64,000 nucleotides of DNA from Malus domestica. Taxonomy: Eukaryota > Streptophyta > Magnoliopsida > Rosales > Rosaceae. Position numbers and translations under genes: made by a program. Shown in pieces: positions 26,972 to 61,690 of the stretch (positions are counted from its first letter, which is position 1; each line of letters begins with the position of its first letter). The DNA lies in the NCBI RefSeq assembly GCF_042453785.1, contig NC_091661.1, forward strand, positions 29,255,501-29,319,500, in the 5' to 3' direction. The notes under the pieces were generated by a model. It was not told the DNA's origin. It did no database searches and worked only from the letters and a program-made list of their open reading frames with translations.

Positions 26972-28679
26972 ATGGGTAAGGGAGGCAAAGCTGCTGAGCC
27001 AGAAAACATGGGTGCTTGGCTTCTTGGTGTTAACAACATCAAGATCCAACCTTTCAAGCTTCCCAGTGTTGGTATGCGCCTTCCCTAAATATTTTAGTTT
27101 CGTCATAGTGTTCTTTCGGTTTTTTGTCTTCAGTCGAGATATTTATGATCATAATGACTTACATCTCGCACCATTTTCTTGGGATTTCTTAATTTAGGGG
27201 TCCATGATGTTCGAGTTCGGATCAAGGCTGTCGGCATTTGTGGAAGTGATGTTCACTACCTCAAGGTTCATCTCCCTTCCATGTCCTTTCCCCTGTTTTT
27301 AATATCTATGGATTTTTAAAATTTTATTTTTGTTCGTTTTAGATGGCATTGTTCATTCCTGAAATAACAATGAAACCAAAGTAGGAACGTTGATAATTTT
27401 CTCTGTTATATCCAACAGATCAGTACCTAATCACTGTGTTTTTTTTTGGTTTTTTTTTTTTTTTTTGCAGACCATGAAGTGTGCAGATTTTGAAGTTAAA
27501 GAGCCAATGGTAATTGGCCATGAGTGTGCTGGGATCGTTGAGGAAATCGGGGCCGAGGTGATGCATCTCGCTCTGGGCGATCGTGTGGCAGTAGAACCTG
27601 GAATCAGCTGCACACGGTGCCAGCAGTGCAAAGGTGGAAGGTACAATCTTTGCCCGGACATGAAGTTTTTTGCCACCCCTCCGGTTCATGGTTCCTTGGC
27701 AAATCAGGTAAAAATGTACACAATAATAAAATTTTATAGGCTTTGCGCCAGATTGATATTGTATTATCACATGCATTAATTAGGCTTGTGTAATAACCAT
27801 TTCGTTTAACAGATTGTGCATCCTGCGGATCTGTGCTTTAAGCTCCCGGAGAATGTGAGTTTGGAGGAAGGGGCAATGTGTGAGCCCTTGAGTGTTGGGG
27901 TTCATGCTTGCCGGAGAGCCAATGTGGGACCGGAATCAACTGTCCTGATCATCGGAGCCGGCCCCATCGGTCTGGTTTCGGTGCTGGCTGCCCGTGCATT
28001 TGGGTCACCCAGAATTGTCATTGTGGATATGGATGACCAGCGTCTAGCCATGGCGCAGTCTCTCGGTGCTAATGACACTGTCAAAGTTTCGACAAAAATG
28101 GAGGATTTGGATGATGAAATTGCCCAGATTAAGACAGCCATGAAATCCAACGTGGATGTGAGCTTCGATTGTGTCGGTTTTAACAAAACCATGTCAACAG
28201 CTCTTGGTGCCACCCGTCCCGGCGGCAAAGTTTGCCTTGTCGGAATGGGACACGGCACGATGACAGTCCCACTTACTCCGGCTGCTGCCAGGTACAAAGC
28301 GATTCCATTTCCTGTCCTTTTTTCTAGCTTTCTCGATAAAATCGAATCGACCCCTATCTTGTCCTACATCAATAACTTAAGTTTTTAGGCATTGTGGATC
28401 AAAAGTGTAACTGCAAGTATACGCTTATTAGATAATTAGGGTTTTCTCGCCTTATCTGATATTAGAGTTTTGTCTTTTGAACACAGGGAGGTTGATGTTG
28501 TTGGAATTTTCCGGTACAAGAACACATGGCCTCTTTGCCTCGAGTTTTTGAGAAGTGGGAAGATCGACGTGAAGCCGCTCATTACGCACCGCTTTGGGTT
28601 TAACCAAAAGGAGGTGGAAGAAGCATTTGAAACCAGTGCCCGTGGGGGAAATGCCATTAAGGTCATGTTTATTTTGTGA
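26972..28679 (+). CDS. SDH: NAD-dependent sorbitol dehydrogenase, SDH-A, five exons
   Basis: Exons are 26972-27071, 27198-27265, 27471-27707, 27813-28291 and 28487-28679, all with GT/AG introns, giving 358 residues. The enzyme oxidises sorbitol to fructose with NAD in the cytosol of sink tissues. It belongs to the zinc-dependent medium-chain dehydrogenases. Catalytic zinc ligands are Cys48 (GICGSDVH), His73 and Glu74 (GHECAG), with Glu159 in [10 protein letters not shown]. The structural zinc lobe is CTRCQQC plus a fourth Cys seven residues on. GAGPIG at 183-188 binds NAD, followed by the Asp of IVDMD that favours NAD over NADP. It differs from the other four copies in keeping four introns and in an N-terminus ten residues shorter. 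It also differs around [18 protein letters not shown]. It is probably the least altered copy of the array. Confidence 0.95.
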
Positions 28680-28815
28680 AAGATGAGTCACGAGTTGGTG
28701 AATTTCGGACCCTTGAGAGGACAAGTTGTGATGGCTCGGAATATCGGAAGTTCATCAATCTCTGATGAGAAATGGAGATGCAAAACTTGTTGATGTACAG
28801 AGATCATATACCTTC

Positions 28816-28821
28816 AATAAA
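28816..28821 (+). terminator. Polyadenylation signal of SDH-A
   Basis: AATAAA occurs 137 bp after the stop codon, followed by a T-rich stretch. It is a canonical near-upstream element, assigned by position only. Confidence 0.5.
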
Positions 28822-29679
28822 CCTCAGCTCCGCTAGTGTTTTTTTTTTAATGTTTTAATTTTTTGTGATCTTACTTTTTACATGAGTCTTTCAATACCTA
28901 TGAACTATATATGTAAGATGATGCCTAAAGGTTCTTAACTACGAGGCATATTATTATTATTTTTTGACACAAATGGTTTTATTTAACACAAGGCTCATGG
29001 TTGTGGTGTAGGGCTTCTCCCATTTCTTTGAATCCTAGATGTTCTACAAAAATAGCCACATACTCTTGGCCACATTGTTGTTAACATATAAATATCATTT
29101 AACTCGTCAAGGAAAATGAGGAATTCAAAACTTTGGACTTCTTTCAGCATTAGGAAGAAGAGAACCATCAAGCTAAGAGTTTGTCGGTGCCTCGCATTTT
29201 AGTTGATGATAAACCTCATTCGTGAATGGAGGATTATGGGGTAACCAAATGTGACTTATGCGCGAGTTAGGTTAACCAAAATGCAATCTATATTAGCATT
29301 CAAAGAGACTTGGCCGCAGTGATTTTAATTGATAAATATAAATGAACTTGTCCATTTAAAATTGTAGTATTTTTATCAACAAAAAAGGACGAGTTCAAGT
29401 TCTGGACCTCTTCTAATATTACGAATAAAAGTATCACTAGACTAAAAGTTAGATGGTACTTCGTGTTTTATTTTTTGGTCAAGTGGCTTCATACATAGAT
29501 GCATCGTGAGGAGGATTATGAGAGATACTTACAACGCGATCGAGGAGGATTATGAGAGGTACCAATAACGTGACCCATGCACAAGTTAGGTAAAGAAAAG
29601 GTAATAAATGATGTAGAAAGAAAAAAAATTGAAAGGGACCCTTAAATAATATCTCCCAGCTAGGATATGTTGTAGATGC

Positions 29680-29897
29680 AGGAGGATCCTTGCCGGATCT
29701 TCTTTGTGAGAATCTTAAGGATCATTTAATCACATCCGTTCATCGTATATCATCCAGTCAGAAATGATTGTAAATTTTTTTATTTAAATTTGAATATAAA
29801 CAGTACCTGACAAAAACTGACGCATAATGTACGATGAATGGATGTGATTGGAGGATCTCTAGGATCCTTACAAAGAGAATCCGACGAGAATGCTCTC
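29680..29897. mobile_element. Foldback MITE with GGATC arms
   Basis: Complementary arms pair across the element: AATCACATCCGTTCATCGTA on the left with TACGATGAATGGATGTGATT on the right, and outer GGATC-rich segments. Noncoding. The termini are approximate. Confidence 0.62.
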
Positions 29898-30643
29898 TCG
29901 TTGCAGACATGCTCAAAATAACTTCCAACTTCCAACTTCCAAGCAAGAAAAGTGACAAACCATGTAAATATTATAATGCGGGACTTTCCCTAATTGTAGT
30001 AGATCATATAATGACTACTCACCATCCTTCATCTTCAAAACATGGTGTGGACATGACATCTAAGTCTTTCCCAAGCCTGAGGTAAATATTTTTAGCAAAT
30101 GTGGTTACATGTCTTTTCAAGCATTGTAAGTGTTTTTTTAATTTTTCGGTTAGTAAAAATATACTTGGTCTCTTGCATTGGTAGAACTGTATAGATATCA
30201 TCAATGCATTTCTTGTCAGATGACACTTGATATTCATCAAGCTGCAAAACAGAACCATTTCATCTGTAAACTTCCAAATGACATGGATTAGCTGTGTACT
30301 TTGAAGCAACGCCACTTCGGGAAAAATTGAAGAAAATTTCATCATCACAACTCCGTTTCTTAATTCAAACACATCCATTCACATGTATATTTTGTTTGAG
30401 CTGGTCATTGCAAGGGACTCCAAGCATTTTATCAGTCATCCCAGCTATCCCAAGTAATCTCAGTAATTCAAGAGATCATGTGCAATGTAACCCTCAACCC
30501 TGCGTAATTAATGGCTACTACCCAACGCAGATTGACACGTACACACCATGCCATATATGTGTGTGACCGAACACGATAGGAAAACAGCATCAGTAGTCAT
30601 TTACACAAGATGAGGTGAATAAAGCATTTAGCCACCGATACTT

Positions 30644-30934
30644 GTGTTCGTGCATGGTGCATGTTACTTAGATAATGCTTCAAAATCTCCGGGTGTTGAA
30701 GAGAACCTTGATACTAGCTCTTTACGAGTTCATGATGCTTCTCTTCAATGGTTTGTGCAAACTCAAGATTTATCTACTCCATATGCCGGTTCAATGAAGG
30801 GGCAGCTAGCCTGTAAGGCGATTCCCGGCATAATATATATTGATCTCTCAACAATCCAAAAGCAGCCAGAGGGAAGGGTAGGAGATGACAGTTCCAATGA
30901 CCCATGGGATATCCAGCAAGAGAGAGATATATAA
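30644..30934 (+). other. Unrecognised 96-codon open reading frame
   Basis: The frame continues without a stop from 30644 to 30934 and has protein-like composition with no low complexity (for example SLQWFVQTQDLSTPYAG and KAIPGIIYIDLSTIQKQ). I cannot assign a family. The sequence just after it (ATATAAGGTCTCTTATGAAGG, then a CT-rich and GA-rich tract) resembles the end of a mobile element, so it may be a transposon fragment. Confidence 0.25.
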
Positions 30935-31374
30935 GGTCTCTTATGAAGGAGGAGGATTATCTTCCTTCCTAATCTCTCTTTCCTTCCCTCATTTCCTATT
31001 TAAACGGTTATAATTAAACCACGTCATCATCTTGTATTGATTTTTTAGAGAGAGAAAGAAAGACAAAAAAAAAACGGTGAGAGGAAGAGTGGGAAGAAGA
31101 TGAGAGAATCCTACTCTCTTAATTTGAATCAGTCTTGCCCTCACTATATTTTCATAGCCTTAGGAAAATGTAATTTCTCTGCTCCAAGTCAGCTGCTTCC
31201 ACTGTTTTTGTCTTCCACTGTGATCAGAGAGTATGAGTTTTGTAAGTTGCAACTTGCAAGTGACTTTGTTCCTTTCGTTTTTATATATACATATATATAT
31301 TTGCCCTACATCATCAATACATTAACATCATAAAACTACAATATGCCTAGTCATTTTCTTATCAAATAAATAAT

Positions 31375-32595
31375 TTCATAAAACAAACTCCAACGTTACA
31401 TTAAAGTCATCTGCAAGACCAAAACACACACTAAGAGTTCAACAACACAAAACTATTGGGAAAGACAACCACATCAACTAAACAACACGCGCGCATAACC
31501 ACAACTAATTTTAATCACTAACCAAGCCCAAGAAACCCAAAACCCTAAAACAACCCATAAATATCTAAAGCAAATTTCCGCCAACAAACCAAGGAAAATT
31601 AGTTGAGCCGGGTGCAATGGTGTAAAAAAGTCTGCCCAACAACCCTAGTCATTGGTCATCCAGAAATTAAACCTAAACCTTACCTTATCTTAAACTGTCG
31701 TTATGTTTTTTCACATTACCAAACGTCAATGAGAAGAGAGGGTCTTCTATACGTACGGCACCTGGAATCCTTGTAAGAGAGGGTGAGATAAAAAATGGGC
31801 CAAAATTAGCATGAAAAATCAGGAAGGGTGGAGTAAGCGAGTGTTGTTTGTGTATGGAGTGATACATATATACACGTGGTCTGGTTACTGAACCTTAGAA
31901 TTTCTCTAATGAGAAAGCCATTTGAATCACCAATAAAGGTTCTTTAGAATGAAAAGGCTAACAAGAGTAGCATATTCCACCTTATATAAATTGCACCATT
32001 CAAGTTATTGCTTAAGACTTTTGACTTCAATTTCTCATAATGATGTAGTAATAGTCTCATGCATATAGGAACCATCAAATATATTTAATTGAGTTTTAGA
32101 GCAACACAAATAATTAAGTAGTCATTTAAGAACATTTTAAATATTTTTGGGGTAGATCAAAAGTCCAATTCGGATTAGTGTTTCATTGTGTTGTATTCCT
32201 TACAAATATATGTACTAAACCCTTGAGAAAGGAGACTTGAATGAATTAAAATATAATTTGCTTAGTGCAATCGAAGTGAGTTGTTTCTTCTTCTAAAATC
32301 AAGTTTGAGACTTGGTTATGTCGAGTGAATCCACAATTAGCAACGTGAGTGATTTTCGTTGCCCCTGATTGAGTGATTCACAAGTATCTATCTCTCGTTC
32401 TTTCTATTTTCCTCGGTCCCAATTTAAGTACTTTTGTCTATACAAATAGATCACTTTCGCTACATCTTGAGAAACTTATCTCACACTGTTTTAATTAGGG
32501 AAAATATATAGGATCAAAGGCCAATGGAAGATGGTGAGTGCACTCCTTCGGCAAACCTAACCCACATAACATATGCCTTGAAATAAAATATAAAA
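31375..32595 (+). repeat. Diverged tandem duplication, copy 1
   Basis: Landmarks in order are ATTAAAGTCATCTGCAAGA, CCCAAAACCCTAAAACAAC, AACAACCCTAG, TATTCCACCTTATA, GATCACTTTCGCTAC and AAACCTAACCCACATA. The same landmarks recur in order at 32650-34123. Noncoding. Confidence 0.7.
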
Positions 32596-32649
32596 TAATT
32601 AATTGATACCAAAATCACAATAACCCGTAGTAATTCTTTTATCAAAATA

Positions 32650-34123
32650 AATAAAGATAAACGTCAACATGACATCAAAGTTATTTACAAGATGAATACA
32701 CACCAACCAAAAGGACAACATCACACTCACAACAGGCAACAACCTCATCGACCACTGATTAAATATCACACATAACCGAAAGAAGCTTAATCAGTAACCA
32801 AGCTCAAAGAACCCAAAACCCTAAAACAACTGATAAGGCTAAAGCAAAACAACTATGGCCACCATTTGAAAAGAGTGCCGGCATCAAACTCGATGCATCT
32901 AACTGAAAATATTTTGTGTAACAACGGGAATCATTCAGTCCAATAACCCTAGTTAGATTTAGATATGGTGATCGTTTCGTGTTTATCATATTTGTGTTGT
33001 TTTCGTGACATACTTGATGTTTAAACGGAATGTGTCTTGTCAAATCCATTAAAATGAACTGGTAATATGACCCGACTCAAACTCAACTTGTTAAAATTAA
33101 CAAGTATTATGACCCGACCAGTTACGTATTAAAAAATATATATTTTGCTTCAATAAATAACCAAATGAAAAACGTTATACTAAATTAGTATTTACATACC
33201 ATGTTGTTACTAAATTATATCTACATACCCTAAATCTTAAAATCCTAAACCCTAAACTCTAAAATTCAAACAATGATGTAACCATCATCAAAGCATAAAG
33301 AATGTGATCACGAATGTTGACAAAAAAAAATTTCACATTTTTCGCACTTGTAAATTAATTTTTATGAATGTTTTGATGTGCTTTGGTATTTTGTAGGAAA
33401 AGTCAATTTACTTTAAAAAATTCTTCATGAGCGGTCAAAGTTGACCACCCATGATTGTTGATCATCGTTGACCGACGTTGACTGTTGACCACTCATGGTC
33501 AATGATTAACGGAATGATCCAATAATAGCCTGATTATTTAATGTGTTGACCATAAATCCGATACTTTCGGGTCGAATTAATGGGTTGTGCAACAAATTCT
33601 TAGGTCTAGTCAAATTATAGTCATCCGCAATTCCCTAATTAAGCATATTCCAAAAGGAAAAAAAAAACTAATATATGAATATCTACCATATTAAGGTATA
33701 TTCCACCTTAATTATAAAATTGCTCTATTCCAGGTTACGATTTAGACTCAAATTTGCTCTTAAACACTTTCGACCAAACAAAGAGTAATACTAGAGATAC
33801 TCAATTTGGAAATTAAATTTTAGAAACTAAAGGATATAGAAGTTGATGATTGATTTATTACTTAAATATTGATAGACGTGCTCATTTCTAATTTCTATTA
33901 GATACATTATTTAGTTTACAATTTTAGTCTTCAAATTTAATCTTCTTAACATTACTTATAAATATATAGATCACTCTGGCTACTTCAGTAGAAATTTCAT
34001 CCAAAACTAATTTAATATATTTCCACTCTGTTAAAATAAGATGAAACCCCAATGGACGATGGTGAGCACACTCCTAGGACAAACCTAACCCACATATATC
34101 ATATGCCATGGAAATAAAGAAAA
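32650..34123 (+). repeat. Diverged tandem duplication, copy 2
   Basis: Matches copy 1 at the landmarks CATCAAAGTTATTTACAAGA, CCCAAAACCCTAAAACAAC, AATAACCCTAG, TATTCCACCTTAAT, GATCACTCTGGCTAC and AAACCTAACCCACATA. It is longer because of extra sequence at about 33050-33650, which includes a cluster of GTTGACC/GGTCAA motifs near 33430-33500. Confidence 0.7.
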
Positions 34124-34285
34124 AAAACTTGCATAAACGAGGATCGTTCGTTTCATGCATGTTGGATAATACATGATTACAAACAGTTGTTTCCTACGCG
34201 TAGCTGACTGTATATCGGCGTGGAGTCATCATCCCTGTCCTATTGCTGTTACTGTTCGCTGGAGGAGATCGGGATTCGGGAGGTA

Positions 34286-34480
34286 TCCAATTATTGACCG
34301 TACTACTACAACTACTACGGCGATTTTTGACTTGACATGCTGCATATGTTAAACAACTTTGGGGACCAGTTGCAAATTCAGCGGTTGGAAAAATCTATCA
34401 CACATATTTTTGACGTGGAAACTAGTCACTTGATGTATGATGCTTGCCAGAAAACATATAGGCTGGCAACCACAGAGAGA
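34286..34480 (+). promoter_or_regulatory. Distal conserved upstream block of SDH-B
   Basis: It shares AATTATTGACCGTACTA with SDH-A and, further on, CACACATATTTTTGACGTGG, GCCAGAAAA and GGCTGGCAACCACAGAGAG with the blocks of A and E. It lies about 2 kb upstream of the start codon. Confidence 0.4.
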
Positions 34481-35392: not shown

Positions 35393-35491
35393 CCGGCCCA
35401 CGCCTACTCTTTTCGTAATTGTGACTTCGATTCGGCTGCTTCCAACAAGCTCGTAAATATCAATCCCCAAATATTATTCTGTTTCTTTACC

Positions 35492-36446: not shown

Positions 36447-37695
36447 ATGGGCAAGGGAGGCCAATCCTGCAATGGCATGGTTAGAGATGTCAAACCTGTG
36501 GAGAAGGAAAACATGGCTGCTTGGCTCGTTGATGTTAACACCATCAAGATCCTACCTTTCAAGCTCCCCACTATTGGTAATAATCTCTCTCCTTTTTAAT
36601 TTCGTTGTTGTTCTGTTCGGTTTTTAGTTTCAGTTTGCAGTTCTATATTTTTTTTTGTTTTCTTGGATGTATAGCTAACTTGTTTTTCCCCTATTTTGTT
36701 GGGATTTCTTTATTTTAGGACCGAATGATGTTCAAATTCGAATTAAGGCTGTCGGCATTTGCGGAAGTGATGTTCACTACCTCAAGACCATGAAATGTGC
36801 GGATTTTGAGGTTAAAGAGCCGATGGTGATCGGACATGAGTGTGCTGGGATCGTAGACAAAGTTGGGAGCGAGGTGAAGCATCTGGTGCCCGGTGACCGA
36901 GTGGCGGTTGAGCCCGGCATCAGCTGCGCACATTGCCAGCAGTGCAAAGGAGGCCGCTACAATCTCTGTCCCGACATGAAGTTTTTCGCCACCCCACCGG
37001 TTCACGGTGCCTTGGCTAATCAGATTGTGCACCCTGCAGATCTGTGCTTTAAGTTGCCGGAAAATGTGAGCTTGGAGGAAGGGGCAATGTGTGAACCCTT
37101 GAGTGTTGGGGTTCACGCTTGTCGGCGAGCCAATGTTGGTCCTGAAACAACTGTTCTGATCATCGGCGCAGGGCCTATTGGTCTGGTCTCAGTTTTGGCC
37201 GCTCGTGCTTTCGGGGCACCAAGAATTGTTATAGTGGATATGGATGACAAGCGTCTAGCGATGGCAAAGTCTCTCGGGGCTGATGACACCGTCAAAGTTT
37301 CAACAAAAATGGACGATTTAGATGATGAAGTTGCCGAAATTAAAAAAGCCATGATCTCCGAAGTGGATGTGACCTTCGATTGTGTGGGTTTCAACAAAAC
37401 CATGGCGACCGGCCTCAATGCTACTCGTCCTGGCGGAAAAGTCTGCCTTGTCGGAATGGGACACGGCCTGATGACAGTGCCTCTCACCCCTGCTGCTGCT
37501 AGGGAGGTCGACGTTGTTGGAGTTTTCAGATACAAGAACACATGGCCGCTTTGCCTCGAGTTTTTGAGGAGTGGGAAGATCGACGTGAAACCGCTTATCA
37601 CGCACCGTTTTGGATTCACGGAGAAGGAGGTGGAAGAAGCGTTTGCAACCAGTGCTCGTGGGGGTAATGCCATCAAAGTAATGTTCAAATTGTAA
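36447..37695 (+). CDS. SDH: NAD-dependent sorbitol dehydrogenase, SDH-B, two exons
   Basis: Exon 1 is 36447-36576 and exon 2 is 36719-37695, giving 368 residues. Catalytic zinc ligands are Cys58, His83 and Glu84, with Glu169 nearby. The structural zinc cysteines are 113, 116, 119 and 127. GAGPIG is at 193-198, and Asp217 fits NAD specificity. The start is the first Met ([10 protein letters not shown]), in the same context (AAAAAATGGG) as C and D. Only intron 1 remains; the positions of introns 2, 3 and 4 of SDH-A are joined exactly, without extra or missing bases. Substitutions such as VHGALANQ and the ending VMFKL distinguish it from its neighbours. The 5' leader repeats TCCGTGTAT three times. 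The 3' UTR is G-rich. Confidence 0.95.
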
Positions 37696-41171: not shown

Positions 41172-41383
41172 GTGTCCATGCCCTCACGGTTTTATTTTTG
41201 GGAACTCACACAAGAACTTCCCAGTGGGTCACCCATCATGGGATTGCTCTCGCGCGAACTCGCTTAACATCGGAGTTCCGATGGAACCCGAAGCCAGTGA
41301 ACACCCAAAAGGTCTTGTGTTATAGGAGGTGGGCATGTACATATAAGGCTTAGAGGATCCACTCCCCTGGGTAGTGTGGGATG
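41172..41383 (-). mobile_element. Cassandra LTR, inverted and partial
   Basis: On the minus strand it reads through the same LTR: TTACATCCCACACTACCC, CTTATATGTACATGCCCACC, then the 5S-like GTTAAGCGAGTTCGCGCGAG and GGGTGACCCACTGGGAAG. The LTR 3' end is missing at about 41172. It directly abuts the plus-strand LTR at 41393. Confidence 0.85.
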
Positions 41384-41392
41384 TAATAATAT

Positions 41393-41686
41393 TATAACAT
41401 CCCATATCGACCAATAGAGAGGGGGTGATGTGCGTTATACGTACATGCCCACCTCCATATAGCACGAGGCTTTTTGGGAGTTCACTGGCTTCGGGTTCCA
41501 TCGGAACTTTTTAGTTAAGCGAGTTCGCGCGAGAGCAATCCTATGATGGATGACCCACTGGGAAGTTCTCGTGTGAATTCCCAGAAACAAAATCGTGAGG
41601 GCATGGTCAGGACCCAAATAAGACAATATCGTGCTACGGCAGAGTCGAGCTCGGGATGTTGTGGGGGCCCGGGCCGGGATGTGACA
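41393..41686 (+). mobile_element. Cassandra solo LTR
   Basis: It runs from TATAACATCCCATATCGACC to GGGCCGGGATGTGACA, about 294 bp. The 5S-like middle has TTAAGCGAGTTCGCGCGAG and GACCCACTGGGAAGTTCTC. No primer-binding site or internal region follows, so it is a solo LTR. The canonical TG start has changed to TA. Confidence 0.85.
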
Positions 41687-45677: not shown

Positions 45678-46913
45678 ATGGGTAAGGGAGGCCAATCCTG
45701 CAATGGCGTGGTTAGAGAAGCCAAACCTGTTAAGCAGGAAAACATGGCTGCTTGGCTTGTTGATGTTAACACCATTAAGATCATGCCTTTCAAGCTCCCC
45801 ACTATCGGTATTAATCTGTCTTCTTTTTTTGAATTTAGTCGTTGTTCCTTTCAAATTTCAGTTTTTAAGTTTCCGTGCTCTCTGTTGTATTAGCTAACAT
45901 GTTGCTCCCTATTTTGTTGGGATTTCTTTATTTTAGGACCGAACGACGTTCGAATTCGGATAAAGGCCGTTGGCATTTGCGGAAGTGACGTCCACTACCT
46001 CAAGACAATGAAATGTGCGGATTTTGAGGTTAAAGAGCCAATGGTGATCGGACACGAGTGTGCTGGGATCGTAGACAAAGTTGGGAGCGAGGTGAAGCAT
46101 CTGGTGCCTGGTGATCGCGTGGCGGTTGAGCCCGGCATCAGCTGTGCACGGTGCCAGCAGTGCAAAGGAGGCCGCTACAATCTATGCCCCGACATGAAGT
46201 TTTTCGCCACCCCACCTGTTCATGGTTCATTGGCGAATCAGATTGTGCACCCCGCGGATTTGTGCTTTAAATTGCCGGAAAATGTGAGCTTGGAGGAAGG
46301 GGCAATGTGTGAGCCCTTGAGTGTTGGGGTTCATGCTTGTCGGCGAGCCAATGTTGGCCCCGAAACAACTGTTCTGATCATCGGAGCAGGGCCTATTGGT
46401 CTGGTTTCAGTTTTGGCCGCTCGTGCTTTTGGGGCACCAAGAATTGTCATTGTCGATATGGATGACAAGCGTTTAGCCATGGCAAAGTCTCTCGGCGCTG
46501 ATGGCACCGTCAAAGTTTCAACGAAAATGGAGGATTTAGATGGCGAAGTTGCCAAGATTAAAGAAGCCATGGAATCCGAGGTGGATGTGACCTTTGATTG
46601 TGTGGGTTTCAATAAAACCATGTCCACAGGTCTCAACGCCACTCGTCCCGGCGGCAAAGTCTGCCTTGTCGGAATGGGACACGGCATGATGACAGTGCCT
46701 CTCACTCCTGCTGCTGCTAGAGAGGTTGATGTTGTTGGGGTTTTCCGATACAAGAACACATGGCCGCTTTGCCTCGAATTTTTGAGAAGTGGGAAGATCG
46801 ATGTGAAGCCGCTTATTACACACCGGTATGGATTTACAGAGAAGGAGGTGGAAGAAGCCTTTGCAACAAGTGCTCGTGGGGGCAACGCCATCAAAGTCAT
46901 GTTTAATTTGTAA
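45678..46913 (+). CDS. SDH: NAD-dependent sorbitol dehydrogenase, SDH-C, two exons
   Basis: Exon 1 is 45678-45807, intron 45808-45936, exon 2 45937-46913. The product has 368 residues with all catalytic and structural zinc ligands and GAGPIG in the same positions as SDH-B. Distinguishing changes include VREAKPVKQ near the N-terminus, ADGTVKV where B has ADDTVKV, HRYGFTE in place of HRFGFTE, and the ending VMFNL. The 3' UTR (AAAGACAGCTACATGTTTTGG) is clearly related to that of SDH-B and not to those of A, D and E. B and C therefore look like the youngest pair. The frame is intact, and nothing suggests loss of function. Confidence 0.95.
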
Positions 46914-52038: not shown

Positions 52039-53278
52039 ATGGGTAAGGGAGGCCAATCCTGCAATGGCGTGGTTAGAGACGCCAAACCTGTTGAGCAGGA
52101 AAACATGGCTGTCTGGCTAGTTGATGTTAACACCATCAAGATCCTACCTTTCAAGCTCCCCGCTATTGGTATGTACTTATCTCCCTACTTTTATTTTCAT
52201 CGCTAGTTTTTTTTTTCGGTTTTTGATTATCAGTTTTCAAGTTTCGTTGAAGTATTGGCTAACATCTTGCTCTCCTGTTTATTGGGATTTCTTAATTTTA
52301 GGACCGAATGATGTTCGAATTCGGATTAAGGCTGTTGGCATTTGCGGAAGTGATATTCACTACCTCAAGACCATGAAATGTGGGGATTTTCAGGTTAAGG
52401 ATCCGATGGTGATCGGACATGAGTGTGCTGGGATCGTAGACAAAGTTGGGAGCGAGGTGAAGCATCTGGTGCCTGGTGACCGTGTGGCTGTTGAGCCCGG
52501 CATCAGCTGCGCACATTGCCAGCAGTGCAAAGGCGGCCGCTACAATCTATGCCCTGACATGAAGTTTTTCGCCACCCCACCTGTTCATGGTTCATTGGCG
52601 AATCAGATTGTGCACCCCGCGGATCTGTGCTTTAAATTGCCGGAAAATGTGAGCTTGGAAGAAGGGGCAATGTGTGAGCCCTTGAGTGTTGGGGTTCACG
52701 CTTGTCGGCGAGCCAATGTTGGTCCCGAAACAACTGTTCTGATCGTCGGCGCAGGGCCGATCGGGCTGGTTTCCGTGCTGGCTGCTCGTGCTTTCGGAGC
52801 ACCAAGAATTGTCATCGTAGATATGGATGACAGGCGTTTAGCCATGGCAAAGTCTCTCGGCGCCGATGGCACGGTCAAAGTTTCGACAAAAATGGAGGAT
52901 TTAGATGACGAAGTTGCCAAGATTAAAGAAGCTATGGGATCCGAAGTTGATGTGACCTTCGACTGTGTTGGCTTCAACAAAACCATGTCTACGGGCCTCA
53001 ATGCCACTCGTCCTGGCGGCAAAGTTTGCCTTGTCGGAATGGGACACGGGGTGATGACGGTCCCTCTCACTCCGGCTGCTGCCAGGGAGGTTGACGTGGT
53101 TGGAGTTTTTCGTTACAAGAACACATGGCCGCTTTGCCTAGAGTTTTTGAGAAGCGGGAAGATCGACGTGAAGCCGCTTATTACCCACCGGTTTGGTTTT
53201 ACCGAGAAGGAGGTGGAAGAAGCTTTTGCAACCAGTGCTCGGGGGGGCAACGCCATTAAAGTCATGTTTACTCTATAG
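52039..53278 (+). CDS. SDH: NAD-dependent sorbitol dehydrogenase, SDH-D, two exons
   Basis: Exon 1 is 52039-52168, intron 52169-52301, exon 2 52302-53278, giving 368 residues. The zinc ligands (Cys58, His83, Glu84; Cys113, 116, 119, 127), Glu169 and GAGPIG are all retained. Changes near the active site set it apart: GSDIHYL for GSDVHYL, and [10 protein letters not shown] where the others have [10 protein letters not shown]. They might alter substrate handling, but that cannot be told from sequence. The intron state equals B and C, but the 3' UTR (GAATTTCGGATTGTTTGAG) is of the A/E type, so D looks intermediate. The downstream flank matches that of SDH-E over more than a kilobase once an inserted transposon is set aside. 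Confidence 0.95.
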
Positions 53279-53677: not shown

Positions 53678-53788
<111 letters not shown>

Positions 53789-53849
53789 TAACAATTTTAC
53801 AAATTATCACAAACCCAACTTATTAAGTTAGAGAAATTGGTCACAAGAT

Positions 53850-56060
53850 GAACATTCTTTATCACTTAAATTGCAAGTTACTCTTTCCTCTCTCTTTTTC
53901 ACCCTAAGGCATTTTCTTTTCACCCTAAAGTTGTAAACCTAATACTTTTGTGTTAACGATGGTTGTCCAAATACTACTTTTGAGGGTTAATAGAATCTAA
54001 TATTTCTTTTCTAAAACGAAAAATAGTTAAAGAGCAAAGCATTTAGAGCAATTCCACCCCTAAGACTTTACGCCAGCACCCAGCGCATTTATCCACTCAA
54101 GTGAACAGTAATAAACCCCAGTGAATAGTAATAGGTCAAAGCATCTCCACCCCTAAAAAAATGCGCTGGCACCCAGTCTAAAAATGTGTTGGCACAAACG
54201 ATCTTCAGCCTTACAAAATGCGTTGGCACCCAGCCCATTTAAAATTTTTTAAATTTTTTTATAAAAGAATAAATAAATAAAATAGTTTTAATTTCGGATA
54301 AGATTTTTTAACCAATCTTGTAACGCCATGTGTCATTATCCGAACGTACTATTTTGTGAATAGATTTCCTCTAAGATTTGCAACCAATCCCGATGCGCCA
54401 CGTGTCACTATCTTCTTTTTTTTAAGTTTATATGGTGAGGTTATGTAATTTTATGTGGTGTTTTTTTTTTTTGTAAAGTTTATTTGGTGAGTTTAATGTA
54501 ATCTTATTTGGTGAGTTTATGTAATCTTATTTGATGTGTTTAAATAAAGTACAAAAAATAAATTTGAAATTACATAAAGTTCTAAAAATAAATAAGAAAT
54601 TACATTAAAAATTACATAAGAAATTAAATAAAGTACTACAAAGAAATACGAAATTATACAAAGTCAGTGGAGCTAGGATATGTGGTGCTAGGATCTTCGT
54701 TGCTAGGATTTCTGTAGCTAGAACCCCTCGACTTGTTTCCGGTATCAGGGTCATGAGTAGTGTGAACCCAACATTCACACAACGTAACATCTTCAATGTT
54801 CTTCCACGAAGAAATTTTTTTCTCTCAAAGTGTAGAAAATATTGAAATGTAGATAGTGTAGAAAGTGTGGAAAATATTGAAATGTGGTGTAAGGTGGAAG
54901 ATGAGGGTTATGTATTTATAGAAAAATAATAATTATTTTTTTGTATTTTTTTATAATTTTTAATAAATTTTAATGTAGCTAATTAATCTGGGCCGTTGGA
55001 TTTGAAAAATATTCAAATCCAATAGCCTATAAGGTGCCACGTGGCCAACGGTCATAATTCTGTGGGTTGAAAAACGTGGACCGTTGATCTGTAATCGAAC
55101 GGTCCAGATCAAAATTATAATTCAAATTTTTTTGACCGTTGGAAATCCAACGACATATAGTGGGCCACGTCGCAAGCTCGGGTGACAATTGAGTGCGCCT
55201 GTCAGCGGGCCCCGTCGCTGAATTGATGTCTGCTACTCGCGCCCACTCGAGCGTGAGTGCCATGCGCCAGGCGCAAAAAAGAAAATGGGCCTGTCCCTGG
55301 GTCAGTCAATTTTAGCATGGCCTGGAGACTAGCATGGGCTGGGTGCCAGTCTATTTCACGGGGACAGACCCCTAGCTTGGTTTTTTAACTGGGTGCCAGC
55401 ACATTCGCCCTCCGGTGGAAGTGCTCTTATGTACAAACGAAGTCTAAAAATAATGCATACCTAGCACAACTAGAAATCTAAGAATGATCACTTAGTGTCT
55501 TTAGTGAGTCAAAATATTTGCAACAAAGTTCGGCTCACTCCAAACACGAATGGACTCAAAGCCTTTTGGCTTGTAGAACACATGTATGAAGTGTTGAGGC
55601 TTCATCGATTGGGGCGAAGTGTGAGCCCTTGAGTCTTTTCGGCCTCCGAAATAATGGAATGTTTTAACTTGACCAGCAACTGGTCCCTTTTTTTATTTAA
55701 GAAAATGTGAGTTTCAATTAATTTTATAAACAATTTTAAATGTTAAACTCATTAGTACTTGTGGCAATGACTTGATTACATGTTAGCGAAAAGTAGCTCA
55801 CATAGATGACATGTTATAAAAGTTAGTAGCGTATTTGGCGAAAGTAACGAAACAAGATAAAGTGAGACATAAAAATTGAGTTAGTAGAGTTAGAGCTAAG
55901 TGACACGAAAATGAGTTTATAGTGACATAGTGAGTTTCACTCATAGTTTAGGAGATATCAAATTAAACGATCAATATTTTCACCTTTTTAAATTACAAGA
56001 ACCCTAATTATATTCTACAAATTAAACATTAACCCTTACAATTTTTATTTGGACTAACTA
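53850..56060 (+). repeat. SDH-D downstream flank homologous to that of SDH-E
   Basis: Segments 53850-53960 and 55690-56060 match 62110-62240 and 62270-62700 in order. Shared landmarks are CACCCTAAGGCATTTTCTTTT, CACCCTAAAGTT, AATCAATATTTTCA-like sequence and ATTAAACATTAACC. The middle is occupied by the Harbinger element. Confidence 0.6.
54046..55426 (-). mobile_element. Non-autonomous PIF/Harbinger element with ORF1 remnant
   Basis: The ends GAGCAATTCCACC and GGTGGAAGTGCTC are inverted repeats with one mismatch. Both sides carry TTA, the 3-bp target duplication of Harbinger. Subterminal motifs (CTGGCACCCAG and its complement CTGGGTGCCAG) recur inside. On the minus strand, about 54810-54655, an open stretch reads WKNIEDVTLCECWVH and continues with a DPDTGNKSRG phrase. 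This resembles the Myb/SANT-like ORF1 protein of plant Harbinger elements, here reduced to some 55 residues. The DDE transposase is missing, so it cannot move by itself. Confidence 0.8.
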
Positions 56061-56154
56061 GTTGCCAAACCACAAAGATCCGGCCCAAATCCCGTCCATC
56101 TAATCGCCTCACGCCAAACTTGAACTTCACTTCCTCCCACTATGATCTCTTATA

Positions 56155-57057
56155 TACATATTTTAGGGAACTTGTAGAGAATCGACAAAAATGTATTTTC
56201 ATGTAGCCTTGCTTAGCCAATATGCTCATCACTGAGCTATCCAATATATCGCCGACATTGATGCATCGACAATATTGACAAAGACCGTCTGTGATCTTTG
56301 GGAGAGACAATCAACTTGTTCTTTGTTAATATCGTCGATGTGTTGATATTCCTTGTCAGTATTTTCAAAATGGTAATGAGTTCTATTGATGTTCAAAATG
56401 GTAATAAGTTCTATTGATGTTGTTGATATTTTCACTTGAGAAATGTTAAGAAGATTTAAAAAAAAAAACGAAACTCTTTATGAACTATTTGCCACATTAT
56501 ACTTTTGTCACAATGTTTTATAATGTTGGCATTGAAATTAACATTAAACAGTGATGTGGTAGAAAGTCCACAGAGAGTCTCACTTTGTGAGAGTCTCTTT
56601 AGCATTTATCTTTTTACTATATTGAGTTTAAGTGGTGGATTCTCTTGATGGTTAGGGTATTTCTCTTCAACCCATTATATTATCCGGTCAAAAATCCTAT
56701 CATTTTGGAGTAAATTAGTGTAGAACATCATTTGTATGTTGCATATATGAAAAAAAAAAATATTTGCTCACCGCCCTCACATAATGATAATACTCACCAA
56801 CATAATTCGAGATATATATACTAGATATAACTTTCAAAATTTAAGTTTATCCAACAAAGATAAATATTATCAGCACTTGAGGGCCACGATAAAAAATACA
56901 CCCATACGAAAAGACGGTGTAAATGAGAGGAGAGATTTTGTAAGAGGGGCCACTAAAACAAATTTTCCAATATATTATGCTTCATACGCGTGTGTCTAAC
57001 TGTACACCTTGTACGTGGCACCTCATTATCCATTGTTGATGTACCACGGCTCCCTTG
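56155..57057 (+). repeat. 0.9-kb tandem duplication, copy 1
   Basis: Begins TACATATTTTAGGGAACTTG and ends CCACGGCTCCCTTG. It has the same content as copy 2 with few substitutions, so the duplication is young. It contains a MITE (56438-56610) and two 27-bp units of TTCAAAATGGTAATAAG type. Confidence 0.93.
56438..56610. mobile_element. Mutator-like MITE, GAGAAATGCTAA family, copy 4
   Basis: Starts GAGAAATGTTAAGAAG and ends GAGTCTCTTTAGCATTTATC. The interior (CACAATGTTTTATAATGTTGG) matches copies 1-3. It was carried along in the tandem duplication. Confidence 0.75.
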
Positions 57058-57987
57058 TACATATTTTAGGGAACTTGTAGAGAATCGACAAAAATGTATT
57101 TTCATGTAGCCTTGCTTAGCCAATATGCTCATCACTGAGCTATCCAATATATCGCCGACATTGATGCATCGACAATATTGACAAAGACCGTCTGTGATCT
57201 TTGGGAGAGACAATCAACTTGTTCTTTGTTAATATCGTTGATGTGTTGATATTCATTGTCAGTATTTTCAAAATGGTAATAAGTTCTATTGATGTTCAAA
57301 ATGGTAATAAGTTCTATTGATGTTCAAAATGGTAATAAGTTTCTATTGATGCTGTTGATATTTTTACATGAGAAATGTTAAGGAGATTTAAAAAAAAAAC
57401 GAAACTCTTTATGAATTCTTTGTCATATCATACTTTTGTCACAATGTTTTATAATGTTGGCATTGAAATTAACATTAAACAGTGATATGGCAGAAAGTTC
57501 ACAGAGAGTCTCACTTTGTAAGAGTCTCTTTAGCATTTCTCTTTTCACTATATTGAGTTTAAGTGGTGGATTCTCTTGATGGTTAGGATATTTCTCTTCA
57601 ACCCATTATATTATCCGGTCAAAAATCCTATCATTTTGGAGTAAAGTAGTGTAGAACATCATTTGTAGGTTGCATATATGAAAAAAAAAAAATTTGCTCA
57701 CTGCCCTCACATAATGATAATACTCACCAACATAATTCGAGATATATATACTAGATATAACTTTTAAAATTTAAGTTTATCCAACGAAGATAAATATTAT
57801 CAACACTTGAGGGCCACGATAAAAAATACACCCATATGCAAAGACGGTGAAAATGAGAGGAATGATTTTGTAAGAGGGGCCACTAAAACAAATTTTCCAA
57901 TATATTATGCTTCATACGCGTGTGTCTAACCGTACACATTGTACGTGGCACCTCATTATCCATTGTTGATGTACCACGGCTCCCTTG
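57058..57987 (+). repeat. 0.9-kb tandem duplication, copy 2
   Basis: Directly follows copy 1 without spacer. It is 27 bp longer because the TTCAAAATGGTAATAAG unit is present three times rather than twice. Confidence 0.93.
57370..57541. mobile_element. Mutator-like MITE, GAGAAATGCTAA family, copy 5
   Basis: Duplicate of copy 4 inside the second unit of the tandem duplication: GAGAAATGTTAAGGAG to CTCTTTAGCATTTCTC. Confidence 0.75.
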
Positions 57988-58140
57988 ACTTTATCATGCA
58001 CATTAAAGCAAGAAACTTCAGGAGGGTTGCAACTCACCGGTCACCGAATTCGATCCCACATATTTCTGACGCGGGAATTAGTCAGTCGTCACCTACCTTG
58101 GACGCGTGCCAGAAACCCTAAGGCTTGCTGGCAACACAGA
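57967..58140 (+). promoter_or_regulatory. Distal conserved upstream block of SDH-E
   Basis: Contains CCCACATATTTCTGACGCGG, AATTAGTCAGTC, GTGCCAGAAACCC and GCTTGCTGGCAACACAGAGAG, matching the B block and more weakly the A block. About 2.3 kb upstream of the start codon. The start overlaps the end of the tandem duplication. Confidence 0.4.
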
Positions 58141-60238
58141 GAGCACATCTCGTGTTTAAGCCTGGCTACACAGGGACCAACCAACTGTTACTAAATAATT
58201 AGGTTTTTGGTCGGTTTTTGTTGGTTGATAATGGATGGTGGGAGTCATTACTGCACAGAATGGCTAATAGATTATGCTAACCGACCAAAAATATATTTAA
58301 TTCAGGCGTTAAAGGAATCCCATGAAAAGTAACAAAAGAAAAAGATAACTTCTAAAACAAGATTATTATTATTATTTTAATTTACTATTATTAAGAGGAG
58401 GGGGAGATTTTTTTTTTTATCTTTTGGGGAAGATATTGAAACGACTAATTACATTAATTTAGAGAACATGAGAGTTTTTAATCCTGAGCTATATATGTAT
58501 ATAAACTCAACGCTCTATCAATTAGAATATTGAATCACATAAAAGAAATAAAATGATAATTTTGGCCCCTTACTCAAATTTTTAGCCACATCTCTCACCT
58601 ACTTGATCCAAAAAGAAAAAAAGCATTATTGCGTGCTTACCTGCTTGTTAGCTCTACCGACTCGTTCGAGCAGATTATAGTCAGGTATTTTGGGGATGCC
58701 AAGGCTAGGGTTTACTCGGATACTAAGGTAGATGAAAATAATGCCCAACAACAATTAAAATGGTGTTAGGAATGTTGAATAGGACCACATAACCAGGACG
58801 TTAAAATGATAGTATCATGTGTTATTAAGTGTTTTTTATAATACTGTCGTTTTGTCCTATTACCATGTAATTTAATTTTTCAGTTTGCTTCCGTTCAACT
58901 ATAATGTTACCTTCTTTTTTTTTCCTGTCGACAATTTTGTTTACTCCAAAGTTATGAAGTCAAGGGAAGGAAGCCCTTGACATAATCTCCAAAATTATTT
59001 GAATCTCTAAGTATTTGCTGTAAGGATAATTAAACTGTTTGGAATAAACTGAAGGAGGACAGCATATTCCAGATTCCACTTTGAGTAAACCTAAACCTAA
59101 CATGGGCATGACTAACAGCAAAACCGTGTACATAGTACATACTCAAACTTAGATCGTCAAACTTAAATATTGTTACAACTGTCTTGATTTGGATAACGTT
59201 TGATAATCTCACTTTCAGCGTCCAAATATTTGGATAATCCAATTGGAAAATTCCTGCTAGCAGCTTAGGAAAATGGATGCACCGTCCAAGACTAATGGAG
59301 GACGGCATGTGGTAGAAGCTTTTCTACGCTAAGTGTGGATTAGACTTGTTAATTGTGGATAACGCTAGAATTCCGGCGAAATTCAGTGTCAAACATGTGG
59401 GGCTGGGGTGGGGGATGGTGGTGGTGGTTTGTTCATTGCTTTAAACCTAGTCATAGAAAAATGTGTAAAGTGACTATTATTTTATTTTATACAAACAACT
59501 TTAGAGAAAGGGGATTGAAAACACATGAGTTTGAGTACATAGAAAATGCTTTAATCACGATTACAAAAAAAAATGCTTTAATCACTCAAGTTACCAGATC
59601 TCGGTTATAATATGAGTTGATTCTGTTTAGAATTGATGCTGATTTGCAGTTTATGTGATCGTTAACTATGAAGAGGGATTGAAACACACATAAATGTTTT
59701 AATCACTAAAGTTACAATATTTTGATTATACTCTGAGTTGATTATGTTGAGAATTAAGGCTGATTTACAATTTATATGATCCTTAATTACGAAGAAAAAC
59801 TTGTGTTTGACTAACCATAAACGACCTAAAAGATTAATAAGTGAGACAAATTGTTAGGATCACATATAGCTCTCTATGCGTCCGGTGGATCATGGTTGCA
59901 CTTGTAGGTTTCTTGATACACCCCCTCTCCCAATCTGTCATCGCTAGTCTTCTTGATGACATATAAAGGGCTGTTTGGAAAACAGTATTAAAAATGGAGT
60001 GCTATGCAGAAAAGCACTCTTGGTAATTATATAAAACGAAACTTTTCAATTTTTTTGACTTATCTAGCATATGTGTCAACAATTTGTAAGAATGTGAAAG
60101 TACTCCTTCTGGGAAACATCCAGGCAATGTCCCACAATTAAATACATTTATTAATTTCTAAAAATAATTAGATAATGTTCCAGGGTTGGCTTATCCAACT
60201 TACAAACCAACTTTACCAAATCAGACTCTCAAGTTTGC

Positions 60239-60246
60239 TATAAATA
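60239..60246 (+). promoter_or_regulatory. TATA box of SDH-E
   Basis: TATAAATA followed by CCACACCCTAGCCAAGC, alignable with the B, C and D promoters. It lies 141 bp before the start codon. Confidence 0.7.
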
Positions 60247-60379
60247 CCACACCCTAGCCAAGCTTGCTCCATCAAAAAACACAACTATTCTGTCTTTCAA
60301 ACACAGAAGACACAGAGCAAACAGCGAAAGCAATACACTTCAGAAAGAAAAAAAACAGAGAGCAAGTATCAAAAGCATT

Positions 60380-61690
60380 ATGGGTAAGGGTGGGCAAAAG
60401 ATTTATGGATTGGCTAAGAAAGCCAAACCTGTTCAGCAAGAAAACATGGCTGCTTATCTTGTTGATGTCAACACCATCAAGATCCTACCTTTCAAGCTCC
60501 CCAGTATCGGTATTTACTTCTCTCCCTTCTTTTAAATTCATCGTTATTTTTTTTCGGTTTTTGGTTTTCACCGTTGTAGTGATGCTAACATGCTGCTCCC
60601 CTGTTCTCTTGGGATTTCTTAATTTTAGGACCCAATGATGTCCGGATTCGGATTAAGGCGGTTGGTATTTGTGGAAGCGATGTTCACTACCTCAGGACCA
60701 TGAAATGTGCGGATTTTGAGGTTAAAGAACCGATGGTGATCGGACATGAGTGTGCTGGGATCGTAGACAAAGTTGGGAGCGAGGTGAAGCATCTGGTGCC
60801 TGGTGACCGGGTGGCGGTTGAGCCCGGTATCAGTTGCTCACGGTGTCAGCAGTGCAAAGGAGGGCAGTACAATCTTTGCCCCGACATGAAGTTTTTCGCC
60901 ACCCCACCGGTTCATGGTTCCTTGGCAAATCAGGTACAAATTTCGACTTTCTTAACCTTTGTGACATATGAATTCTATGGCATCAGGACCGTAAATAATG
61001 ACCATCTGTTTTTAACAGATTGTGCATCCTGCGGATCTATGCTTCAAGCTGCCAGAGAATGTGAGCTTGGAGGAAGGGGCAATGTGTGAGCCCTTGAGTG
61101 TTGGAGTTCATGCATGTCGGCGAGCCAATGTTGGTCCCGAAACAACTGTTCTGATCATCGGAGCAGGGCCTATTGGTCTGGTTTCAGTTTTGGCCGCTCG
61201 TGCTTTCGGGGCACCAAGAATTGTCATTGTGGATATGGACGACAAGCGTTTAGCCATGGCAATGTCTCTCGGCGCTGATGGCACCGTCAAAGTTTCAACA
61301 AAAATGGAGGATTTGGATGACGAAGTTGCCAAGATTAAAGAAGCAATGGAATCCGAGGTGGATGTGACCTTTGATTGTGTGGGTTTTAATAAAACCATGT
61401 CGACGGGTCTCAACGCCACTCGCCCCGGCGGCAAAGTCTGCCTTGTCGGAATGGGACACGGCATGATGACAGTGCCTCTCACTCCAGCTGCTGCCAGGGA
61501 GGTTGATGTGGTTGGTGTTTTCCGGTACAAGAACACATGGCCACTTTGCCTCGAGTTTTTGAGAAGTGGGAAGATCGACGTGAAGCCGCTTATTACTCAC
61601 CGGTTTGGATTTACCGAGAAGGAGGTGGAAGAAGCCTTTGCTACCAGTGCTCGTGGGGGTGACGCCATCAAAGTCATGTTTAATCTATAG
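60380..61690 (+). CDS. SDH: NAD-dependent sorbitol dehydrogenase, SDH-E, three exons
   Basis: Exons are 60380-60509, 60629-60933 and 61019-61690, giving 368 residues with the zinc ligands and GAGPIG intact. Its second intron (85 bp) sits at exactly the place of intron 3 of SDH-A (after AATCAG, before ATTGTG), while the sites of introns 2 and 4 of A are joined. That makes it an intermediate between A and the B/C/D structure. The N-terminus [17 protein letters not shown] differs from B, C and D. The structural zinc lobe has [15 protein letters not shown], with Gln where the others have Arg. The ending is DAIKVMFNL, again unlike the others' NAIKVMF. The 3' UTR is of the A/D type. Confidence 0.95.

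Follow-up and report, generated by a model that had tools for sequence, protein, structure and literature searches.

SDH genes in the window and their introns

The window, a stretch of 64,000 nucleotides of apple (Malus domestica) DNA (NC_091661.1, positions 29,255,501 to 29,319,500), holds part of a sorbitol dehydrogenase (SDH) gene array, and five copies, all on the forward strand, were modelled there (SDH-A to SDH-E). SDH-A (26972..28679, span 1708 bp) has five exons (26972-27071, 27198-27265, 27471-27707, 27813-28291 and 28487-28679) and four introns, placed after codon 33 (intron 1, 27072..27197, phase 1), codon 56 (intron 2, 27266..27470, phase 0), codon 135 (intron 3, 27708..27812, phase 0) and codon 294 (intron 4, 28292..28486, phase 2). 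SDH-E (60380..61690) has introns 1 (60510-60628) and 3 (60934-61018). The single intron of SDH-B (36447..37695; intron 36577-36718), SDH-C (45678..46913; 45808-45936) and SDH-D (52039..53278; 52169-52301) is intron 1. Introns 2 and 4 are thus exactly missing in B, C, D and E, and intron 3 in B, C and D. Positions and phases of the introns present are identical among the gene models, all have GT-AG borders, reading frames are intact (358 aa for A, 368 aa for B-E), and the junctions at missing introns have gained or dropped zero bases. These models bear out a first-pass annotation that had described a 4, 2, 1, 1, 1 pattern in A, E, B, C and D with exons joined precisely at the former splice points; the last site in A, put there at about codon 295, lies after codon 294. 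The interval marked in that annotation, 27072 to 61018, runs from the start of A intron 1 to the end of E intron 3.

The array as first described holds for the five window copies but is incomplete in scope, as it extends 3' on chr1 and has a partner array on chr7. Beyond the window lie F and G, with introns 1 and 3, and H, with four introns, so that the intron counts on chr1 read 4,1,1,1,2,2,2,4 in order; those on chr7 read 4,1,1,1,3,4. A, A7, H and H7 have introns 1-4 at identical sites, and the chr7 copy E7, with introns 1, 3 and 4, represents an intermediate state. Among all 15 genes modelled (14 class I array copies and a class II paralogue, O), none lacks intron 1. By subtraction of coordinates by hand, 11 array spans equal those of class I models in Table 2 of PMC4404067, including MDP0000123910 for A, MDP0000250546 for B (1249) and MDP0000874667 for D (1240). 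Class I residues (Y and A,T) are found in 13 of 14 array copies where O has H and G,S; the other copy, C7, carries a frameshift and its A,T site is unreadable. Class II residues are given as 42H, 112G and 113S in PMC4404067, whose site numbers we follow, and O has H and then G,S 70 and 71 residues on, which is the published spacing; O is therefore assigned by residues and spacing rather than by alignment to grape.

As an outgroup from the apple genome itself, O indicates the direction of change. It has introns 1-4 at the class I sites and phases, plus one extra intron, and the direction is therefore loss. The first-pass annotation had preferred loss over gain and had named outgroup genes without introns 2-4 as evidence to the contrary; O retains them and shares introns 1-4 with A, A7, H and H7. 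The four sites are best explained as ancestral, probably predating the split of class I and class II SDH. Chance is ruled out by the same site and phase in all copies and by E intron 3, which in alignment is 58-65% identical to its counterpart in A, A7, H and H7. We found no support for the reverse scheme, in which A, E and H gained introns at matching sites. It is rejected as wholly implausible, as it would need parallel gains in O at all four sites and phases, and intron 3 of E, F, G and E7 aligns with that of A and H. A search of genome contigs for SDH gave, among the matches listed, two loci, both bacterial (40% and 28% identity), and no plant locus; a search of viral contigs found none.

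Captured SDH-A mRNA and a likely route of intron removal

A spliced exon 1-exon 2 piece of SDH-A mRNA is present at three loci of the same genome. Its source is the 5' leader and exon 1 (26880..27072, forward strand) and the first 40 nt of exon 2 (27197..27237, forward strand), with intron 1 absent from the captured copies, which are nearer to A (91-93%) than to A7 (86-88%). At two of the three loci, LTR pairs and a primer-binding-site-like motif flank the piece: L035 has LTRs at 4507-4884 and 7943-8303 (83.5% identical) with the motif at 4887, and L037 has LTRs at 4339-4729 and 7352-7732 (72.5%, by a relaxed search) with the motif at 4732. Neither an LTR pair nor such a motif was found at L036, and a Pfam scan of one frame of L035 returned no families. 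Given a spliced piece at three loci, with LTRs at two, we conclude that mRNA of A has undergone reverse transcription in this lineage; for SDH-A mRNA, then, reverse transcripts of the family's spliced mRNA have been present in the germ line. Capture of host mRNA by LTR retrotransposons is known, for example in maize Bs1, and the apple element is similar in having a piece of spliced host mRNA between the LTRs of a multi-copy element; it differs in that exon 1-exon 2 of SDH-A occurs at three places and the 5' leader alone at 15 more. Pieces of SDH-A exon 4 at seven places end at the end of that exon or within a few bases of it, an ambiguous signal of splicing. Among the captured pieces examined, the 2|3 and 3|4 junctions are absent and no clear 4|5 junction is seen, and with the exception of unspliced SDH-B pieces they do not derive from the intron-losing copies. 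Those SDH-B fragments (on C13, C16 and C17) were considered as intron-lacking copies and rejected; they contain intron 1 and are therefore DNA-level captures.

Reverse transcription is a likely cause of the losses, and recombination of the array genes with cDNA, in the series given below, is the account of the exact and recurrent loss that we favour, at a probability of about 0.55. Local DNA duplication would have built the array of class I copies, as the promoter-side DNA that B7 and C7 share with E7 (9e-15 and 7e-16) indicates, and introns would then have been removed in place, exactly. A single loss of intron 2 would date to the common ancestor that B-G share with E7. Before the chr1 and chr7 arrays arose by duplication, the B/C/D-type ancestor would have lost the neighbouring introns 3 and 4, presumably in one event. 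In the E/F/G ancestor, intron 4 would have been lost again, after the array duplication (E-E7 dS 0.29) and before the E-G split (dS 0.16). Short cDNAs, reverse transcribed from spliced SDH mRNA and recombining with the genes, are the most likely agent and would have served as template at the array genes; since an LTR family of this genome carries spliced SDH-A mRNA, the enzyme probably came from an LTR retrotransposon. Every absent intron was removed exactly at its splice sites, as is expected of cDNA-mediated loss, and the neighbours 3 and 4 are both missing in the B/C/D type; intron 2, and intron 4 in its second loss, went singly. The 5'-most intron is kept in every gene, yet the earliest loss is that of intron 2 with 3 and 4 kept, and such a loss near the 5' end, first and alone, fits 3'-primed cDNA poorly. 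The partly spliced cDNA proposed in the first-pass annotation is plausible, with backing from the spliced A mRNA in LTR elements, but is weakened by this early loss of intron 2 and by short repeats at the lost introns.

These repeats are microhomologies of 2 nt at intron 2, 3 nt at intron 3 and 4 nt at intron 4 in A, A7, H and H7 (3 nt at intron 4 of E7), which would allow exact deletion by end joining. Genomic deletion, with double-strand breaks at splice-site AG or CAG(G) repeats mended by microhomology end joining and with no RNA involved, is the strongest competitor, and we regard it as possible but on the unlikely side. It agrees with the longest microhomology being at intron 4, the intron apparently lost twice, with the isolated loss of intron 2 in the 5' portion of the gene, and with the lack of 3' bias reported for plants in PMC4256211. 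However, every absence is exact, with no imprecise remnant in 14 copies, one and the same lineage lacks both neighbours, 3 and 4, and the 2 nt at intron 2 do not exceed the microhomology at intron 1, which was never lost.

Order of losses and a probable second loss of intron 4

The whole-gene tree supports a B/C/D clade (96.3/85), a clade of E, F and G with E7 (95.6/93) and the union of both (99.6/100). E thus stands beside B/C/D; a position nested within B/C/D is what the first-pass annotation had said would speak against its scheme. Mapped on this tree, losses number zero for intron 1, one each for introns 2 and 3 and two for intron 4, in line with the earlier proposal of loss at least twice; on the tree intron 2 went first and introns 3 and 4 later. 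Placing E and F with C is rejected (p-AU 0.0001), and exon 4 alone leaves the placement of E relative to B/C/D ambiguous. The genes have a mosaic structure. B/C/D are split up in the trees of exon 3, exon 5, intron 1 and the 3' flank, and support for EFG+E7 is weak from intron 1 (0/32) and the 3' flank (42.7/70). Intron 4 of E7 has 65-68% identity to that of A/A7 and 70-72% to that of H/H7, and this roughly equal distance indicates that it was inherited. Two independent losses of intron 4 are, from these trees, likely but not certain, and the order on the tree together with the second loss is supported but not settled.

A single ordered series, in which E7 splits first, intron 4 disappears once, from the shared ancestor of E/F/G and B/C/D, and intron 3 is then lost from B/C/D, saves one loss and is preferred by exon 4 alone. 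The corresponding tree with E7 outside is not rejected by the full CDS (p-AU 0.095) or by exons 1-3 plus 5 (0.058), and is narrowly rejected (0.0485) when the C-like tract described below is removed. Against it, the 5' flank tree joins EFG+E7 (98.8/99), non-coding data reject it (p-AU 0.0002, although their own best tree differs from the CDS tree), and the E-E7 dS of 0.29 is within the range of the other partner pairs (A, H, D and B, 0.19-0.29), with chr1 and chr7 copies collinear in position. We consider this series unlikely.

The one-intron type may instead have arisen once, with B/C/D-type donors passing the intron-4-less state to the E/F/G ancestor by gene conversion. In its favour, exon 4 of SDH-E contains a C-like tract (61060..61480, forward strand, alignment columns 498-918, converted by hand; permutation P 0.00045, uncorrected for 12 tests), with similar runs in F (P 0.00085) and G (P 0.0042) at columns 534-918, and exon 3 contains B-like runs in E (222-348, P 0.010) and F (201-348, P 0.003). 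Sequence exchange between paralogues is evident from exon 5 of D/D7, which clusters with the E type (97.9/91). However, the tract in E ends before the lost intron 4 junction (61497/61498), at a distance of 12-24 nt on its 5' side, and the flanks of that junction match neither kind of donor: E/F/G are unlike C, B, B7 and C7 at -12, -3, +13, +28 and +46, and unlike D/D7 at -24, -12, +10 and +46, although D/D7 have the E/F/G bases at -3 and +13 and position -12 is hypervariable. The +46 base of E/F/G is common to E7 alone. Outside the run, grouping E/F/G with C is rejected (p-AU 2e-6); inside it, EFG+E7 is not rejected either (p-AU 0.114). Conversion of E/F/G intron 4 by a one-intron paralogue is weakened by the flank mismatches and the tract end, and seems to us improbable.

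Within the preferred cDNA account, the second intron 4 loss and the adjoining C-like tract could, as a speculative and quite improbable refinement, be one chimeric-cDNA event. Having copied spliced E-type mRNA through the junction of exons 5 and 4, reverse transcriptase would have moved to a C-type mRNA template within some 24 nt. Recombination into the E/F/G ancestor would then have deleted intron 4, leaving the gene's own flanks, a C-like exon 4 and intron 3. If true, this would be a natural trace, in a plant, of template switching in cDNA-mediated intron loss.

A retrogene can form from a partly spliced transcript, as in the rodent insulin I gene, and the single 5' intron of the B/C/D-type genes would suit such an origin with intron 1 retained. 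We judge it highly improbable, as orientation within the array is uniform, B7 and C7 share with E7 a stretch, probably promoter, that lies 149-254 nt before the ATG, and D shares DNA with E7 to +677, although the D 3' end may be an exchange product; this flank homology weakens a retrogene origin.

Comparison with known systems

How introns disappear exactly is an old open question, argued mainly on genome-wide statistics. The arrays hold the starting state, intermediates with three and two introns, the end state with one and a five-intron paralogue in one genome, which also holds retrotransposon-borne spliced mRNA pieces of the same family. SDH is also relevant to fruit sugar: PMC9330611 reports an effect on fruit fructose of an MdSDH2 promoter variant located on linkage group 1. 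Our literature search found no paper pairing 'sorbitol dehydrogenase' with 'intron loss'. For pear, PMC4490486 reports 14 expressed SDH genes with 5 (1 gene), 4 (3), 3 (1), 2 (3) and 1 (6) introns, close to the 1, 4, 1, 3 and 6 genes with these counts among the 15 modelled in apple, a likeness of intron counts alone and not of positions, order, cause or gene-by-gene matches. Exact recurrent intron loss is of a kind already known in plants: in grasses (PMC4256211) losses are exact, take neighbours together, strike the same intron repeatedly and show no 3' bias. The apple SDH losses are likewise exact; introns 3 and 4 are both gone in the B/C/D type, intron 4 was likely lost twice, and intron 2 went first with 3 and 4 kept. 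Compared with the grass losses reported there, those of apple SDH are distinct in lying in one tandem array and its partner, with intermediates side by side, and in that the genome also contains captured spliced mRNA from a member of the family.

Intron content of the two SDH arrays

Gene models built from the window place SDH-A at 26972-28679 on the plus strand, with introns at 27072-27197 (site 1, phase 1), 27266-27470 (site 2, phase 0), 27708-27812 (site 3, phase 0) and 28292-28486 (site 4, phase 2), and SDH-E at 60380-61690 (plus strand), whose two introns, 60510-60628 and 60934-61018, occupy sites 1 and 3. SDH-B, SDH-C and SDH-D have a single intron each, at site 1, and the five reading frames are open throughout (358 aa for A, 368 aa for B-E), confirming the intron pattern described in the first-pass annotation. 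When the search covered the whole genome (651 Mb, 19 contigs, with the window at C1:29255501-29319500), the array was found to extend 3' beyond the window and to have a collinear partner on the chr7 contig. With intron numbers in brackets, the chr1 array reads A(4), B(1), C(1), D(1), E(2, sites 1 and 3), F(2), G(2), H(4), and the chr7 array A7(4), B7(1), C7(1), D7(1), E7(3, sites 1, 3 and 4), H7(4). Eleven of these genes (A, B, D, F, H, A7, B7, C7, D7, E7 and H7) have, to the base, the span of a class I model listed for apple in Table 2 of PMC4404067, and on this ground we take the genome to be apple.

Several irregularities were seen along the arrays. A lone E-like SDH exon 1 lies between E and F (C1:29326622-29326751, L009), with GA instead of GT at its intron donor, and intron 3 of H (chr1, L010 to L011) has the donor GC, possibly as a GC-AG intron. 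Exon 3 of gene C7 (chr7, L015) is one base shorter than in the other copies and its frame is shifted, reflecting either a pseudogene or an assembly error; by its span in PMC4404067 this gene is MDP0000188054, reported as expressed (PMC9284748). The window also contains a tandem duplication of ~0.9 kb (56155-57987, 93% identical) and ~430 bp matching its own reverse complement at 84% (41173-41609), perhaps a small inverted-repeat element.

Direction and order of the losses

Gene O, an SDH paralogue on the minus strand of chr1 (C1:22287001-22289172), carries the residues H, G and S that PMC4404067 gives for class II at three positions, and we take it for the one class II gene which that study describes in apple. 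It has a counterpart, in site and phase, of each of the four introns of A, and one more intron within exon 4; A7, H and H7 have the four as well. Because these five genes share the introns and PMC4404067 places the class I/class II split in the core eudicot ancestor, introns 2-4 are ancestral and the change is a loss, the direction originally proposed. For P. mume, Table 2 of that paper gives the class I gene a span of 1737 bp, near the 1708 bp of A, an indirect hint that this gene has four introns.

A maximum-likelihood tree of the 15 coding sequences recovers the B/C/D type as a group (support 96.3/85), joins E7 to E/F/G (95.6/93) and unites these two groups (99.6/100); A/A7 branch next to the joint group and H/H7 lie outside. 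On this tree intron 1 was never lost, introns 2 and 3 once each and intron 4 twice. The absence of introns 3 and 4 from D, D7, B, B7 and C7 alike dates their loss, on these comparisons, before the chr1/chr7 duplication. Intron 4 is kept in E7 and absent from E, F and G. Partner pairs differ by dS of 0.19 (A-A7), 0.22 (H-H7), 0.27 (D-D7), 0.29 (B-B7) and 0.29 (E-E7), and E-G by 0.16, and the last two values would bracket the second loss of intron 4; C and C7 (0.42) are not partners, since C7 groups with B7. Intron 4 of E7 appears inherited rather than imported late, because it is about equally distant from A/A7 (65-68% identity) and H/H7 (70-72%).

The weak point of this order is the placement of E7: were it outside E/F/G plus B/C/D, a single intron 4 loss would suffice, a question of order and not of agent, so that its odds overlap with those of other readings. 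Such a tree is favoured by exon 4 alone and is not rejected on the full CDS (p-AU 0.095) or on exons 1-3 plus 5 (0.058), but is just rejected when a C-like tract in exon 4 of E, F and G is left out (0.0485), and rejected by flanks plus intron 1 (0.0002). The best non-coding tree itself differs from the coding tree (p-AU of the latter there, 0.062), support for E/F/G with E7 is 98.8/99 in the 5' flank, 42.7/70 in the 3' flank and 0/32 in intron 1, and B/C/D do not form one group in trees of exon 3, exon 5, intron 1 or the 3' flank. We read the array as a mosaic, for which any single tree is an approximation.

Exchange between copies and a likely second loss of intron 4

The C-like tract spans columns 498-918 in E (permutation P 0.00045) and, nearly equal, 534-918 in F and G (P 0.00085 and 0.0042), and B-like runs occur in exon 3 of E (P 0.010) and F (P 0.003), all values being uncorrected for 12 child/donor tests. 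Derived bases in the tract are common to E/F/G and C, at several sites also to D and D7, and not to E7. Taken alone, the tract yields a best tree of E/F/G with C but does not reject E/F/G with E7 (p-AU 0.114), whereas sequence outside the tract rejects E/F/G with C (p-AU 2e-6).

A one-intron paralogue could in principle have donated the intron-4-less state to E/F/G along with this tract, but that is unlikely, because the intron 4 flanks fit neither candidate type. The final shared derived base lies 24 nt 5' of the intron 4 junction, and E/F/G differ from C, B, B7 and C7 at -12 (hypervariable), -3, +13, +28 and +46; D and D7 match E/F/G at -3 and +13 and differ from them at -24, -12, +10 and +46. 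At +46 the E/F/G base is common to E7 alone. The simplest view is that C-to-E conversion ended where intron 4 still stood, and that the intron was lost afterwards; a bolder one is that a chimeric cDNA gave both tract and loss together. Exon 5 and the 3' flank of D/D7 group with the E type (97.9/91), and the whole-gene tree puts these genes with B and C, pointing to an old exchange between paralogues at their 3' end.

Retrogene origin of the one-intron copies is countered by flanking DNA shared with E7, 149-254 nt upstream of the ATG in B7 and C7 (9e-15 and 7e-16; probably promoter) and downstream to +677 in D (3e-18), whose 3' end may itself have been exchanged. Most likely, the copies arose by DNA duplication and their introns were lost in place.

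Captured SDH sequence and the agent of loss

Pieces of SDH-A beginning ~90 nt 5' of its start codon and ending 40 nt into exon 2 were found on contigs C10 (L032 1511-1739), C9 (L033 1853-2083) and C15 (L034 2039-2269), with exon 1 joined exactly to exon 2 and intron 1 absent. At the DNA level this piece has at least 26 matches: these three, the 5' portions of A and A7, 15 further places with the leader only and six short hits to SDH exons. At two of the three places (L035 and L037) the piece follows a TTTGGCGCCGTCTGTGGGA motif and lies between LTRs 83.5% and (relaxed search) 72.5% alike; around it at the third (L036) no LTR pair or TTTGGCGCCGTCTGTGGGA motif was found. Spliced A mRNA was thus reverse transcribed in this lineage. 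The motif also stands upstream of the leader in five of six leader-only places fetched (of the 15), with one base changed in two of the five. Identity of the pieces is 91-93% to A but 86-88% to A7, with A and A7 themselves 90.5% identical over this interval, so that the A/A7 split probably came before the capture. Seven places (L025-L031) hold a piece of A exon 4, flanked by direct repeats ~94% alike in the two examined with wider surroundings (L038 4853-9740, L039 3424-8149). Junctions 2|3 and 3|4 are absent from every captured piece examined, as is any clear 4|5 junction. The genome-wide protein search through which the fragments came to light listed 92 matches, with no intron-free full-length SDH copy among them. 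The pieces thus show the means of loss and not the act, A itself having lost no intron.

In a separate set of matches, the 5' part of SDH-B, intron 1 included, occurs at 92-93% identity on contigs C13, C17 and C16 (L022, L023 and L024), adjoining partly tandem repeated sequence common to all three.

We give a probability of about 0.55 to the whole statement that introns were lost stepwise in the array with cDNA as agent, in which cDNA from spliced SDH mRNA would remove introns at array genes. The partly spliced cDNA invoked by the first-pass annotation gains from the exactness of the losses, the captured spliced mRNA, E/F/G's own flanks at the second intron 4 loss, the joint absence of the neighbouring 3' introns 3 and 4 from the B/C/D type and the retention of 5' intron 1 in 15/15 genes; against it count the loss of intron 2 first and alone, and the 2-4 nt of microhomology that the lost introns have, longest at intron 4. 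As agent, cDNA is plausible but unproven.

Among the 14 expressed pear SDH genes of PMC4490486, 5, 4, 3, 2 and 1 introns occur in 1, 3, 1, 3 and 6 genes, close, as counts, to the 1, 4, 1, 3 and 6 of our 15. Since these nearly agree, the intron states are probably older than the apple-pear split. The finding is thus real, in the direction first proposed and wider than the window, and is a well-preserved example of the recurrent exact intron loss already reported in plants (PMC4256211); our search found no literature linking sorbitol dehydrogenase with intron loss. PMC9284748 reports four apple SDH genes whose expression follows fruit maturation; by span these are B, D, B7 and C7, all with one intron, a pattern that may be due to chance.
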